From: Blautia sp.
GTDB taxonomy: Bacteria; Bacillota; Clostridia; Lachnospirales; Lachnospiraceae
Direction of reading: 5' to 3'
Length of the DNA: 64,000 nt
NCBI GenBank assembly: GCA_022770365.1
Contig: JALEHU010000092.1
Span: forward strand, 1 to 64,000
The position numbers and the translations under genes are program-made. Positions 57,805 to 63,970 of the stretch are shown here, in pieces (within the stretch, counting starts at the first letter, position 1; each line of letters starts with the position of its first letter). The notes under the pieces are model-generated. The model saw only the letters and a list, made by a program, of their open reading frames with translations, was not told the origin of the DNA and searched no databases.

Positions 57805-57853
57805 AGATGCTGCCGGACTTGTGAATGTTCATATGTCCGGCAGCATTTGCGTT
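57805..57853. terminator. Terminator
   Basis: GATGCTGCCGGAC...GTCCGGCAGCATTTGC. Confidence 0.75.
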
Positions 57854-58161
57854 TATTTACAGTCTTTGCAGGTTTCCATACATGGTGCATCGAAGCTCGG
57901 GTTAAAAGCATAGAAGTTTTTGGAATCCAGCTGTTCCTGTATGCTTCGAAGAGCTTCACCGAAGCGCTGGAAGTGGACGACTTCCCGGGCCCGGAGGAAC
58001 CTGATGGGGTCTGCGATTTCCGGAATATCGCGGACTACCCGGAGAATGTTGTCGTAAGTGGAACGTGCTTTCTGCTCTGGTGCGATAAGAAAAGAACAAT
58101 AAATGGAGTACATAGTTACATTTGCATAAGAAGTTTTGAATATTTCCTGTTTCGTTTGCAT
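57853..58161 (-). pseudogene. CotJC-type (Mn-catalase family) spore coat protein, 3' fragment only
   Basis: From about 58083 downward: PEQKARSTYDNILRVVRDIPEIADPIRFLRAREVVHFQRFGEALRSIQEQLDSKNFYAFNPSFD; N-terminal two thirds absent. Confidence 0.8.
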
Positions 58162-58167
58162 ATTCCA

Positions 58168-59757
58168 TCAGAAATTCCAGTGGATTTCGATCGGAACCTT
58201 ATTTGTGCCGGGAAGCCTTTTTTCTATCCGGATATAGTCGATCATTGTTTCAACAGCTTCGCGATTCAGATGTTCCAGGTTTGTGTATTGCTCAGAAAGC
58301 TTTTCAGGATTATCCTTTGATTCCTTGCTCCTTTGTAACTCTGATAATGACCGTCTGCTGTCCGAAATCATACCCTCCAGGCGGTTTTCTTCTTCAGCAA
58401 AATTCTTTGAAAATGACAGGAATTCGCTTTCGGTAAGGATTCCTTTTGTTTTATCCAGGTAAAGATTCTGAAGTGCTTTCCGATATTCAGAGATTTTTTT
58501 TTCGTACAGAGCGATATGGTTTCTCAATTGTTCTTCCTGTTTTGCAAAAATGTCTTCAGACAATCGCCTTATAATTTTCATCTGAGCTGCTATATTGTTT
58601 TTGTCAAGATATTGTGCGGATAATTGGTTCAATTCAGTGATAACTGCGTTTTCTAATGCATTCAGTGAAATAAAAGCACCGGCACAGGCGTCTTTAGACA
58701 CTTGGCGGTTGGGGCATTTCAGGTAATACCTGCCGTGACTCTGAGAAGAACGCATCACGTAACCGCACCCTGCACACCGGACTTTTCCTGCGAATATTCC
58801 GGTTTTTCCGCTGGAAAAGGGCCTGGTGCGCTGCTGGATGAGAGCCTGTACTCTGTCCCAGAGCGCGCGGTCTATGATCGGCTCATGAGTTCCTTCGACG
58901 CGGTACCATTCATTTTTGGGACGCGGTCGGTTCTGCTTTGTTTTGTAGGAGATGCTTCCGTATTTTCCCTGTACCATATTGCCGATATAGATTTCATTCT
59001 GAAGCATATGGGCAATGGCAGAGTATTTCCATAAGGTACTGTTTGGGGATTTTGGCTGCTGATAACGATAACCATGCAGACGTTTGTATTCTGTGGGATT
59101 TGGAATGCCGCGTTCATTCAGCATTCGTGCAATGGCTGTTTTTCCATATCCCTGTGAAAACAGAGTAAACACCGCGCGGACGACAGCGGCAGCTTCTTCA
59201 TCAATGATCAGATGCCCTTTCTGCCGGGGATCCTTTTGGTAGCCGTAAAGGGGAAAGGCACCGATATGGAGCCCCTTTTTACGCTTGTCTGTGAGAACAC
59301 TTCTGATGTTGTCCGACATGTCTTCCAGGTACCATTCATTGACCAGACCATTGATCTGCCGGGATTTTTTATTGCCCTTACTGGCGGTGTCGGCATTGTC
59401 CACGATACTGACAAAGCGGATTCCCCATAGTGGAAATAAGCCATGGATATACTTTTCCACAAGCTCCAGTTCACGGGTGAATCGTGACTGCGTTTTGCAG
59501 AGTATCACATCGAATTTTCTTCTCTCAGCATCCTTAAGCAGACGGTTGAATTCCGGCCGCTTCCGGTCAGAACCGGTGTAATCATCATCACTGTAGATAT
59601 CATAGACTTCCCATCCCTGTTCATGTGAATAATCCATCAGCATGGATTTCTGATTCCGGATGCTTTCGCTGTCATCTGTTTCATGTTGTTTATTCCGGTC
59701 TTCTTCCGACAGGCGGCAGTAGATTGCAGCTTTCACAGTCATACAGAGATCACACAT
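58168..59757 (-). CDS. Large serine recombinase (resolvase + recombinase + zinc ribbon + coiled coil)
   Basis: AAIYCRLSEEDRN; DYTGSDRKRPEFNRLLKDAERRKFDVILCKTQSRFTRE; CAGCGYVMRSSQSHGRYYLKCPNRQ. Confidence 0.95.
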   Translation of the reverse strand: MCDLCMTVKAAIYCRLSEEDRNKQHETDDSESIRNQKSMLMDYSHEQGWEVYDIYSDDDYTGSDRKRPEFNRLLKDAERRKFDVILCKTQSRFTRELELVEKYIHGLFPLWGIRFVSIVDNADTASKGNKKSRQINGLVNEWYLEDMSDNIRSVLTDKRKKGLHIGAFPLYGYQKDPRQKGHLIIDEEAAAVVRAVFTLFSQGYGKTAIARMLNERGIPNPTEYKRLHGYRYQQPKSPNSTLWKYSAIAHMLQNEIYIGNMVQGKYGSISYKTKQNRPRPKNEWYRVEGTHEPIIDRALWDRVQALIQQRTRPFSSGKTGIFAGKVRCAGCGYVMRSSQSHGRYYLKCPNRQVSKDACAGAFISLNALENAVITELNQLSAQYLDKNNIAAQMKIIRRLSEDIFAKQEEQLRNHIALYEKKISEYRKALQNLYLDKTKGILTESEFLSFSKNFAEEENRLEGMISDSRRSLSELQRSKESKDNPEKLSEQYTNLEHLNREAVETMIDYIRIEKRLPGTNKVPIEIHWNF

Positions 59758-59908
59758 CCTGTCCGGTTTTGCCGGTATGTTTTCTTTTATCTTCTTCCAT
59801 TCGAATAATCATGTCAGTCCATTGCTTTGTAAACTGATCTTTGACAGGAGTATTTTTGCCGCCTTTAAAAACATTTTTACAGATAACCTGTGTCTGTTTC
59901 CGTCCCAA
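59750..59908 (-). CDS. Small ORF (about 52 aa, TTG start) translationally coupled to the recombinase; not in the supplied ORF track
   Basis: LGRKQTQVICKNVFKGGKNTPVKDQFTKQWTDMIIRMEEDKRKHTGKTGQDV*; stop GTGTGA overlaps recombinase ATGTGTGA. Confidence 0.5.
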   Translation of the reverse strand: MGRKQTQVICKNVFKGGKNTPVKDQFTKQWTDMIIRMEEDKRKHTGKTGQDV

Positions 59909-60023
59909 CAGACCACCGCCTTTATTTTGTTGTGAAAACTTATGCAGCTATGCCTGTACCGTATGACAATTAGATGTGATGTTTTCCCTGTTGACGATGG
60001 AAGTTGGTTATTGTAATATTAAA

Positions 60024-60288: not shown

Positions 60289-60540
60289 TTGCCAGAAATT
60301 AGCAGATTTTACGGTATTATAATTAAAATGTTTATTAAACCAAGAGAACATGAGCCAAGTCATTTACATGCATTATATGGAGAATATGTTGGTATTTTTG
60401 ATCTTCAGACAATGAATATGACTGAGGGGGATTTACCGGGAAAAGCACAGGAGCTTGTTAAAGAATGGATGGAGAATAATCAAAGTGAATTGCTTGAAAT
60501 GTGGGATAGCCAAAATTTCCATAAATTACCGCCATTGTAA
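60289..60540 (+). CDS. DUF4160 domain protein
   Basis: MPEISRFYGIIIKMFIKPREHEPSHLHALYGEY. Confidence 0.88.
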   Translation: MPEISRFYGIIIKMFIKPREHEPSHLHALYGEYVGIFDLQTMNMTEGDLPGKAQELVKEWMENNQSELLEMWDSQNFHKLPPL

Positions 60541-60566
60541 TCTGACCAATAATGGAGGCGTGCTGA

Positions 60567-60815
60567 ATGATACCAAGAATTAAAAGCATAAAGCCATTGG
60601 AGAATTATATGCTATATGTGATGTTTGACGATAAAAAAGAAGTAATTTACGATGTGAAGACAGATATTGAAAATATCAAAAGCTATGAAGCACTAAGAAA
60701 AGTTCAGGGATTGTTTGAATGCGTGAAGTTGGACCAAAGCAGAACAGTTGTTTTCTGGAATGATGAAATTGATTTACCAAGTGATATTATCTATGAATAT
60801 GGAACGGTTGTGTAA
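60567..60815 (+). CDS. DUF2442 domain protein
   Basis: IKSIKPLENYMLYVMFDDKKEVIYDV; VVFWNDEIDLPSDIIYEYG. Confidence 0.85.
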   Translation: MIPRIKSIKPLENYMLYVMFDDKKEVIYDVKTDIENIKSYEALRKVQGLFECVKLDQSRTVVFWNDEIDLPSDIIYEYGTVV

Positions 60816-61076: not shown

Positions 61077-61135
61077 ATCCGGGGAAGTACTGTGTTTTTC
61101 CTGCGATATAAAGAACTGTTATGGAGGAAAGAGGA

Positions 61136-61393
61136 ATGGAAACAAGAGTTGCAGTCATCGGGATCATTTTGGAAAAGCCGGATTCTGTGGAAAAAATGAA
61201 TGCGGTGATCCACGAATATTCGGAATATATTGTAGGCCGTATGGGGATTCCCTACCGTCAGAAGGGAATTAATATTATCAGTATCGCAGTGGATGCTCCC
61301 CAGGATATTATCAGTGCATTTTCGGGAAAAATCGGCCGTATTGACGGTGTAACTGCCAGGGCAGCGTATTCGAATTATGTATTTAAAGAATGA
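61136..61393 (+). CDS. TM1266-family iron-only hydrogenase system regulator
   Basis: METRVAVIGIILEKPDSVEKMNAVIHEYSEYIVGRMGIPYRQKGINIISIAVDAPQDIISAFSGKIGRIDGV. Confidence 0.88.
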   Translation: METRVAVIGIILEKPDSVEKMNAVIHEYSEYIVGRMGIPYRQKGINIISIAVDAPQDIISAFSGKIGRIDGVTARAAYSNYVFKE

Positions 61394-61510: not shown

Positions 61511-62290
61511 GTGAGGTGTTTTGTGATAAAGAAAATCCATCAGTTCCTGAAGCCATGGTATGTGATCATCCTTATTTTTATTTTATGGTGGGTGGTTTCC
61601 GTGTTGGAAATATGGAATACTTACCTGCTTCCTACACCGTGGAAGGTTGGAGCGACATTTGTGAAAATGCTCCAGAAGGGTGAAATTTTTGAGGCGATTC
61701 TGGTGAGCTTTAAGCGCGTGCTCATTGGCTTTTTTATATCGTTTGCTCTGGCTTTTGCTATGGGAATGTTGTCTGCGTACCTGCCCGGACATGCGGCATA
61801 TCTGAAGCATGTCAGCAATTTTCTGCGGAATGTTCCGCCGCTTTCCATGATCTCCCTGCTGATTTTATGGTTTGGCCTGGGGGAAACCTCCAAGCTGATC
61901 ATCATTGTCCTTGCCTCCTTTTTTCCAATGACAATGAATATCAGCAAGGGATTTGTGGAATGTGACAAAAGGCTGATAGAGGTAGGAAAATCCATGGGAT
62001 TTTCCAGACTCAAGCTCTTTTTTCGTATCAGCCTGCCTTATGCCAGAGAGGATATTCTGGTAGGCATGCGTATCGGGCTGGGCTACAGCTGGCGTGCGCT
62101 GATTGGAGCAGAGATGTTTGCCGCGGCGTCGGGACTTGGTCATATGATCGTATTTGCACAGCAGATGTCGCGTTCGGATAAAGTCCTGATCGGTATTTTT
62201 CTTATTGGAATTATCGGCTGTATCTGCGATAAGCTTTTTTCAGTATTTATCCGTAAAGTATGTGTAGGCGGTGAAAAAAATGGGTCATGA
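61511..62290 (+). CDS. ABC transporter permease (SsuC/TauC-type)
   Basis: LPTPWKVGATFVKML; EVGKSMGFSRLKLFFRISLPYAREDILVGMRIGLGYSWRALIGAEM. Confidence 0.92.
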   Translation: MRCFVIKKIHQFLKPWYVIILIFILWWVVSVLEIWNTYLLPTPWKVGATFVKMLQKGEIFEAILVSFKRVLIGFFISFALAFAMGMLSAYLPGHAAYLKHVSNFLRNVPPLSMISLLILWFGLGETSKLIIIVLASFFPMTMNISKGFVECDKRLIEVGKSMGFSRLKLFFRISLPYAREDILVGMRIGLGYSWRALIGAEMFAAASGLGHMIVFAQQMSRSDKVLIGIFLIGIIGCICDKLFSVFIRKVCVGGEKNGS

Positions 62291-62993
62291 TATTCAGCTT
62301 AAAAATATAGAAAAATCATTTCTGGTTGAAGGACAGCCTCTGGAAGTGCTGAAGGAATTTGACCTTACAGTTCCTCACCATGCTATTACTGTAATTCTTG
62401 GAAAAAGCGGATGCGGAAAGACGACACTTCTTCGGATTATAGGCGGTCTGGATAAAGATTTTCAGGGTACAGTTATTTATCCGGAGAAGTCGAAAACAGC
62501 CATTGTCTTTCAGGAACCGCGTCTGATGCCGTGGCTTACTGTGTGGAAAAATATCGTTTTCGGATTGAAAAAAAAGGAAATCAGAGAAGAAAAAATCAGG
62601 GAGCTGATTGCACTGACGGGACTTTCCGGGTTTGAAAATGCACTTCCCTGCCAGCTTTCCGGCGGTATGGGACAGCGCACTGCGATTGCACGGGCACTGG
62701 CTGTTTCACCGGAATTTCTTCTGATGGATGAACCGTTTGCAGCTCTTGATTATTTTACCAGAAGCAGTATGCAGCAGGCTCTTCTGGAGATACATGAAAA
62801 AAATGACTGCGGTGTACTTTTTATTACCCACAGTATTGAGGAAGCACTGACGATCGGTGACCATATTGTGATCATTGATCAGAAAAAAGTGAAGAAGGTT
62901 TATCATCTGAAAGAAAAGCCGGCAAAGAGAAATCTTTTATCAAAAGAAATGGCTGATCTCAAAGAGGATATTCTTCAAAATATTAATTCATAA
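62271..62993 (+). CDS. ABC transporter ATP-binding protein (SsuB/TauB-type)
   Basis: LGKSGCGKTTLLRIIGGLD; LSGGMGQRTAIARALAVSPEFLLMDEPFAALD. Confidence 0.95.
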   Translation: MKKMGHDIQLKNIEKSFLVEGQPLEVLKEFDLTVPHHAITVILGKSGCGKTTLLRIIGGLDKDFQGTVIYPEKSKTAIVFQEPRLMPWLTVWKNIVFGLKKKEIREEKIRELIALTGLSGFENALPCQLSGGMGQRTAIARALAVSPEFLLMDEPFAALDYFTRSSMQQALLEIHEKNDCGVLFITHSIEEALTIGDHIVIIDQKKVKKVYHLKEKPAKRNLLSKEMADLKEDILQNINS

Positions 62994-63010
62994 AAAAGGA
63001 GATATGCAAA

Positions 63011-63970
63011 ATGAAAGTGAAAAAAACAATGTCACTCTTACTTACGGCAGCAATTACACTGTCTTCCCTGACAATGAGCTCTCCGGTATCGGTTATGGCA
63101 GAAGATCTGGATTCTGTAGCGGTAACCTATGTTACTGCACCGCTGAATGTCCCGTCTATTGTGGAGAAAAACCACAGTATTTTTGCGGAAAATATGAAGG
63201 ATCTGGGCATTGAATTTGTGGAATATTCGGATCTTACGTCCGGTGCTGATCAGACGCAGGCGCTGGCATCCGGGGATATCCAGTTCCTGTATGCGGTTGG
63301 TGCAACTTCCGTAATCTTATCTGCAGCAAACGGGGCGGATATTAAGATCATTTCTATGTACAGCCGGTCCCCAAAAGCATTCTGCCTGTTTTCAAATGAT
63401 GAGAGTATTACATCACCGGCAGACCTGAAAGGAAAAACAATTGCAGGTCCTCAGGGCACCATTCTCCATGAACTTCTTGTGGCGTATCTTGCATCCGGGG
63501 ATATGACGATCGATGATGTTAATTTTGTAAATACGAGCATACCGGACGCTATGGCTGCTCTTAGCGGCGGAAGTGCCGACTGTGCACTTCTGGCAGGTGC
63601 TGCAGCCTATAATACTTCTTCCGGCGGCGCGCATCTTGTAACAAATGGAGAAGGATTTGTAGAAGCAACGATCGCATGTGCGACGACCAATAAGTTTTAT
63701 ACAGAGCATCAGGATGTAGTGGACAAATTCCTGGAAGCACAGAAAGAAGTGCTGGATTATATGGATGAAAATCCGGATGAAGCAATGGAAGAGACAGCAG
63801 AATTTCTTGATCTTGACGTAAATGCGGTCAAAGAAATGTACGAATACTATGATTTTGACATGACGATTAAAGATTCTGATATTGATGCTATGAAATCCAC
63901 AATGGAATTTATGCTGGATACAGAAATGATCGAAGAAGAAGTGGATATTGAGGAACTGGTAATCCGCTGA
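63011..63970 (+). CDS. ABC transporter substrate-binding protein (NMT1/SsuA-like)
   Basis: Signal peptide; TQALASGDIQFLYAVGATSVILSAANGADIKIISMYSR. Confidence 0.9.
   Translation: MKVKKTMSLLLTAAITLSSLTMSSPVSVMAEDLDSVAVTYVTAPLNVPSIVEKNHSIFAENMKDLGIEFVEYSDLTSGADQTQALASGDIQFLYAVGATSVILSAANGADIKIISMYSRSPKAFCLFSNDESITSPADLKGKTIAGPQGTILHELLVAYLASGDMTIDDVNFVNTSIPDAMAALSGGSADCALLAGAAAYNTSSGGAHLVTNGEGFVEATIACATTNKFYTEHQDVVDKFLEAQKEVLDYMDENPDEAMEETAEFLDLDVNAVKEMYEYYDFDMTIKDSDIDAMKSTMEFMLDTEMIEEEVDIEELVIR

Follow-up and report, generated by a model that had tools for sequence, protein, structure and literature searches.

A putative skin-like intervening element splits the spore coat gene cotJC in Blautia and belongs to an apparently widespread family

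Results

The window, the whole 64,000-nucleotide stretch that was analysed, lies on a 108,860 bp contig (C86) of a draft Blautia genome (G000; 130 contigs, 85% complete). Its minus strand carries the 3' half of the spore coat gene cotJC (57853–58077; codons 136–209 and the stop, the last 74 codons), recognised by a match to Mn_catalase (Pfam) and by alignment with the intact CotJC of relatives. Ahead of it lies a recombinase gene of 529 codons (58168–59757, minus strand; the start is possibly the second ATG, at 59742) whose product has Resolvase, Recombinase and Zn_ribbon_recom domains (Pfam), the catalytic serine motif YCRLS, a PHROG integrase match (E 2e-105) and a weak DUF4368 match (Pfam). 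This is the make-up of a large serine recombinase, and its position at the cotJC 3' junction is as in intervening elements, which encode their own site-specific recombinase. The first-pass annotation had named both the recombinase and the truncated cotJC correctly; it placed them about 85 bp apart, and the distance from the recombinase stop to the recombination core is 90 bp.

It was also right that the window holds no 5' part of cotJC, which sits 11.5 kb past the window end. A search downstream on the minus strand, as had been proposed, located it on the same contig (C86:75939–75533), and an Mn_catalase search of the genome matched C86:75511–75939, on the same strand as the 3' half; cotJB (PF12652) precedes it. 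Two observations had been named in advance as counting against an intervening element, a genome with no 5' fragment and an intact second cotJC that would make this fragment a relic. The 5' fragment is present, and the Mn_catalase search of the genome found no intact second copy.

Read in the sense of cotJC, the 5' half ends CTTGCAGCA-GA-TGGTGCGATC and the 3' half starts TTATCGCACCA-GA-GCAGAAAGC. The dinucleotide GA is common to both junctions (58076–58077, minus strand, with its twin at C86:75533–75534) and is taken as the join point because only joining there yields the length of the intact gene. The join gives CTTGCAGCAGAGCAGAAAGC (L-A-A-E-Q-K), matching intact relatives, and a scarless, in-frame cotJC of 209 codons cut between codons 135 and 136. 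An earlier join reading LAADGAPEQK was dropped, being four codons too long against the alignment with intact genes. The predicted excised piece is 17,457 bp and would close as TTGTTCTTTTCTTATCGCACCA-GA-TGGTGCGATCATTCAAAAACAA. Its recombinase-side arm, TTGTTCTTTTCTTATCGCACCA (58078–58099, minus strand), was defined by comparing the junctions, and the arm motif also follows the recombinase in most of 80 related loci; with the other arm, TGGTGCGATCATTCAAAAACAA, it forms a perfect 9 bp dyad around GA. Such a dyad around a non-palindromic dinucleotide is what would be expected of a large serine recombinase attP. Collinear halves that rejoin to an intact reading frame, and att sites with a short common core and inverted repeats, are features of sporulation-gene intervening elements. 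Chance can be excluded because joining the halves through a common core flanked by a 9 bp perfect inverted repeat restores the full-length reading frame, and because the identical architecture recurs in dozens of other genomes.

Directly ahead of the recombinase is a 52-amino-acid ORF with a TTG start (59750–59908, minus strand). Of 80 related loci, 71 have a homologue in this position, with the conserved core IC.SVFKSGE.TT.K.QFT.KWIELIN.LEKNK; neither Pfam nor PHROG gave a match. Its position, size, conservation and promoter make it a candidate recombination directionality factor. The promoter is of σE type (ATA-N17-CATAAGTT; 59937–59964, minus strand), and the form ATA-N17-CATAnnnT occurs at equal spacing upstream of the small ORF in 34 of 47 loci compared, whereas shuffling (200 sets) gave six at most. 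The cotJ operon itself has a σK-type promoter, AC-N16-CATAAAATA or close, in 37 of 38 Blautia loci (1.3 expected), split and intact alike, and this is kept in 21 of the 22 split loci. Both forms agree with those published for Clostridium difficile, where the σE consensus is represented by spoIIID (ATA-N16-CATATATA) and the cotJ operons are σK-dependent (PMC3789822). The simplest reading of the two promoters suggests that σE would act first, for excision, and σK second, for transcription of cotJC.

Within the interval, a DUF4160 gene resembling the DhiT toxin (60289–60540, plus strand; match below the NCBIfam equivalog cut-off) is followed by its likely partner, a DUF2442 gene (60567–60815, plus strand; domain match). 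This possible toxin-antitoxin pair (60289–60815) could stabilise the element. Then come a TM1266-type hydrogenase regulator (61121–61393, plus strand; domain matches) and an ABC permease, ATPase and NMT1 binding protein (61511–63970, plus strand), and the interval extends beyond the window until it meets the cotJC 5' half at C86:75533. Overall it holds the DhiT-like pair, the TM1266 regulator, ABC transporters (two NMT1 types and a thiamine-binding protein), a VWA/MoxR pair and a ZIP transporter. No phage structural or packaging genes were found when the larger predicted genes were compared with Pfam and four of them with PHROG, and no entry in the phage collection is more than 43% identical to the recombinase; a prophage origin is therefore unsupported. 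No relaxase, coupling protein or type IV secretion gene, as expected of an ICE or conjugative transposon, was found among the interval genes scanned. In another Blautia genome (G027), thiamine-transport, GntR/ABC and VWA/MoxR genes lie downstream of cotJC and outside the element, in the same order as inside the window interval (C86:57853–75939 compared with G027:C47:93655–119258), and the interval genes are there chromosomal neighbours of cotJC. Because it includes genes that in relatives are outside the element, the window interval must have been rearranged; in the lineage of G000 and G080 the element and the cotJC 3' half look to have been permuted, apparently circularly, with neighbouring genes.

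A survey of 64 Blautia genomes gave a cotJC match in 44: the gene is split in 23, intact in 19, and runs into a contig edge in two. The query was a cotJC composite four codons too long, which leaves these tallies unaffected. There are five insertion points, all within the most conserved motifs of CotJC: site A at codon 31 (GG/PDGE, the slash marking the break), B1 at codon 63 (G/TEELAH), B2 in EELAH, site C, that of the window, at codon 136 (AA/EQKAR), and D at codon 176 (FG/EA). Three genomes have two inserts in one cotJC (G061, with C1:200998, 213172 and 242319; G080; G033). All 21 split gene sets that could be fully rebuilt rejoin intact, at 207–216 amino acids, and an intact recombinase lies beside the junction in nearly every split genome. 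The intervals range from 2.1 kb (G027) to 45 kb (G066), the former being a minimal element with little beyond the recombinase (L028, C47:117500–137000). Assemblies of a single contig show the split architecture too (G086, G158, G097, G183, G220). Closely related species can differ in carriage (G004 split, G067 intact), and several Blautia genomes keep a diverged CotJC paralogue. Order-wide, 125 of 197 sampled genomes have a cotJC match and roughly 50 of the best matches fall below full length, a table count with junctions partly inspected.

Some loci are more complex. Several cotJC 3' halves stand in a row on one contig in three genomes (G172:C68:14663–18625; G141:C3:119434–134012; G200:C70:32458–37323), possibly through tandem accretion or as 3' ends borne by elements. 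In G014, one contig crosses an unoccupied B2 site and another an occupied one (L072, L074), both ending at codon 89, and we read this assembly as a mixed population for one B2 element.

Each site has its own recombinase clade, with 39–93% identity within clades and about 20% between them. Elsewhere in the order, a recombinase was found in nine of ten split-cotJC genomes and was closest to the clade of its own site in eight of the nine. The ninth (G220; L207, C1:80000–96500) has a further split near codon 100, with a shorter recombinase frame (332 amino acids) beside the 3' half and only a weak clade match. A search of 85,462 species genomes with the site C recombinase gave 80 closest relatives, 66–74% identical, from Lachnospiraceae, Oscillospiraceae, Anaerotignum, Longicatena and others; carriers include Anaerotignum lactatifermentans DSM 14214, Roseburia faecis M72, Parablautia intestinalis D8-82 and Blautia sp. 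An249. For 75 of the 80, the locus has a cotJC piece broken at the window's codon, within 500 bp of the recombinase end in at least 66; the contig of one further relative (L145) ends inside the att site. The recombinase points towards the 3' half in 46 and towards the 5' half in 20, and the two orientations imply attP cores of GA or TC; G009 and G061 illustrate this, with recombinases of 93% identity. In Holdemanella biformis (L141:11551 onwards) a recombinase of this family lies within a PTS mannose-family IID gene, with a similar arm and GA core, and no cotJC was found in that genome. Internal attP-like junctions at L101:1555–1610 and L104:11584–11640 mark two elements in tandem at one cotJC site; L101 was considered as an attP circle and rejected, since a cotJC 3' half lies further along the contig. 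Viral contigs were also scanned for the circular form, and none matched the attP pattern.

As pairwise dN/dS across all species was saturated, selection was tested only on pairs with a common insertion. The interval contents of G000 and G080 are collinear, with 80–88% DNA identity, and since both genomes have this interval the insertion predates their split. Between them the cotJC 5' part shows 52 synonymous and 8 nonsynonymous differences (ratio 0.043, P 2e-26) and the 3' part 20 and 3 (ratio 0.043, P 9e-11); the ratio for the 3' part in the site B1 pair G023/G083 is 0.039. The recombinase is likewise under purifying selection (pN/pS 0.24 against the G080 orthologue); the G083/G023 recombinase comparison, read in a wrong frame, was left out. 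No in-frame start codon lies between the last upstream stop and the junction in 14 of 25 cotJC 3' halves, including the site C halves of G080 and G009, and selection can therefore act only on the rejoined gene.

Discussion

The first-pass annotation had left three options for this locus, developmental excision, ordinary integration and decay. The observation is confirmed and proves larger than first described: the best reading, and on the sequence evidence a very probable one, is that the window carries a skin-like sporulation-gene intervening element in cotJC that is developmentally excised. Elements of this kind in cotJC apparently form a widespread family that has so far gone unreported.

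The principal alternative is ordinary site-specific integration, with cotJC a mere landing site, dispensable and dead in carriers, and excision confined to transfer, outside sporulation. CotJC-type proteins do look redundant, as the C. difficile cotCB and cotD mutants are described, in a quotation in PMC11222575, as having no clear coat defect. The retained paralogues and the gain or loss of elements between close species point the same way. However, we consider this alternative improbable because the 3' half is under selection often without a start codon, because the σK-type promoter is retained, and because recurrent independent insertions always rejoin in frame; purifying selection is strong on both halves after a common insertion. 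The σE-type promoter ahead of the small ORF and recombinase at site C also speaks against it, although the argument from regulation is strong for site C only, as the search used there detected no such promoter for the site A, B2 and D recombinases.

That the locus is what remains of an old, decayed integration, or an artefact of assembly, might be suggested by the draft state of the genome and the rearranged interval, yet this is already contradicted and very improbable: the independent G080 assembly has the same interval, single-contig genomes share the architecture, and decay is excluded because the att dyads are intact, the recombinase is intact and under purifying selection, and both cotJC halves are under purifying selection. 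Least credible of all is a split-protein gene, in which two separately translated halves would come together with no excision of DNA, since, even though the window 3' half happens to have in-frame ATG codons upstream, most 3' halves lack a start and the split point varies by species from codon 31 to codon 176, which a two-subunit protein could not tolerate.

For developmental excision we propose the following sequence of events. In the early mother cell, σE would transcribe the small directionality factor together with the recombinase, and the two proteins would recombine the att sites at the GA core, releasing the interval as a circle and rejoining cotJC. σK would then transcribe cotJABC, and whole CotJC would enter the spore coat. 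The forespore would retain the element, so that its loss would never be inherited. More broadly, cotJC probably serves gut Firmicutes as a general docking gene for DNA that is excised during development. On this reading, five or more unrelated recombinase lineages would have converged on it, each specialised for its own conserved metal-ligand motif in the CotJC/Mn-catalase fold, since a coat gene that is not required until late in a doomed mother cell offers a cost-free home; making one protein would take up to two independent excisions.

Several independent recombinase lineages share one gene as their target, in over half of the Blautia genomes with cotJC and, by a rough count, in about 40% of the cotJC-bearing genomes sampled in the order. 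This spread would make programmed rearrangement common among gut spore-formers, and the carriers supply many natural replicates in which to examine the link between excision and the mother cell. A cotJC annotated as 'pseudogene' or 'truncated' can therefore be misjudged, and the family is a source of dozens of highly site-specific serine integrases whose att sites are readable.

Only a few cases of programmed DNA excision in sporulation are known, each usually a single element in a single gene, and intervening elements in sigK, spsM, spoVFB, gerE and yabG are established. Text searches of 5.39 million papers in the open, as distinct from subscription, literature found none in cotJC; the nearest report is of phi027, a C. 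difficile phage whose integration site is next to a CotJC-like gene and does not interrupt it (PMC11222575, PMC12122855). Judged on structure, the cotJC element belongs to the intervening-element class and would work like skin and gin. As with skin in sigK of B. subtilis and C. difficile, an element with a large serine recombinase splits a mother-cell sporulation gene that can be rejoined in frame. In C. difficile, mother-cell specificity is conferred by a directionality factor of about 50 amino acids under σE and SpoIIID (PMC5025042), and cotJC site C has a candidate of about that size. The target of skin is a sigma factor, whereas that of the cotJC elements is a late coat-protein gene, attacked by many unrelated recombinase lineages at five or more sites and with excision predicted from sequence. 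The gin element in gerE of B. cereus ATCC 10987 is, like the cotJC element, not a prophage and has serine recombinases and a small factor, and its rejoining is sporulation-specific (PMC5595907); gin uses three recombinases at one target site, in contrast to one recombinase per site, across several Firmicutes families, for the cotJC elements. SPbeta in spsM, vfbin in spoVFB and yin in yabG also occupy sporulation genes and are excised by serine recombinases (PMC4191935, PMC10747680), but are prophages or prophage-like with a single site each, whereas among the window-element genes scanned none is recognisable as a phage structural gene. Finally, the weak DUF4368 match recalls the TndX-type large serine recombinases, a clade described as multi-targeting (PMC10083194), whereas 75 of the 80 relatives of the window recombinase are found at one codon of one gene.
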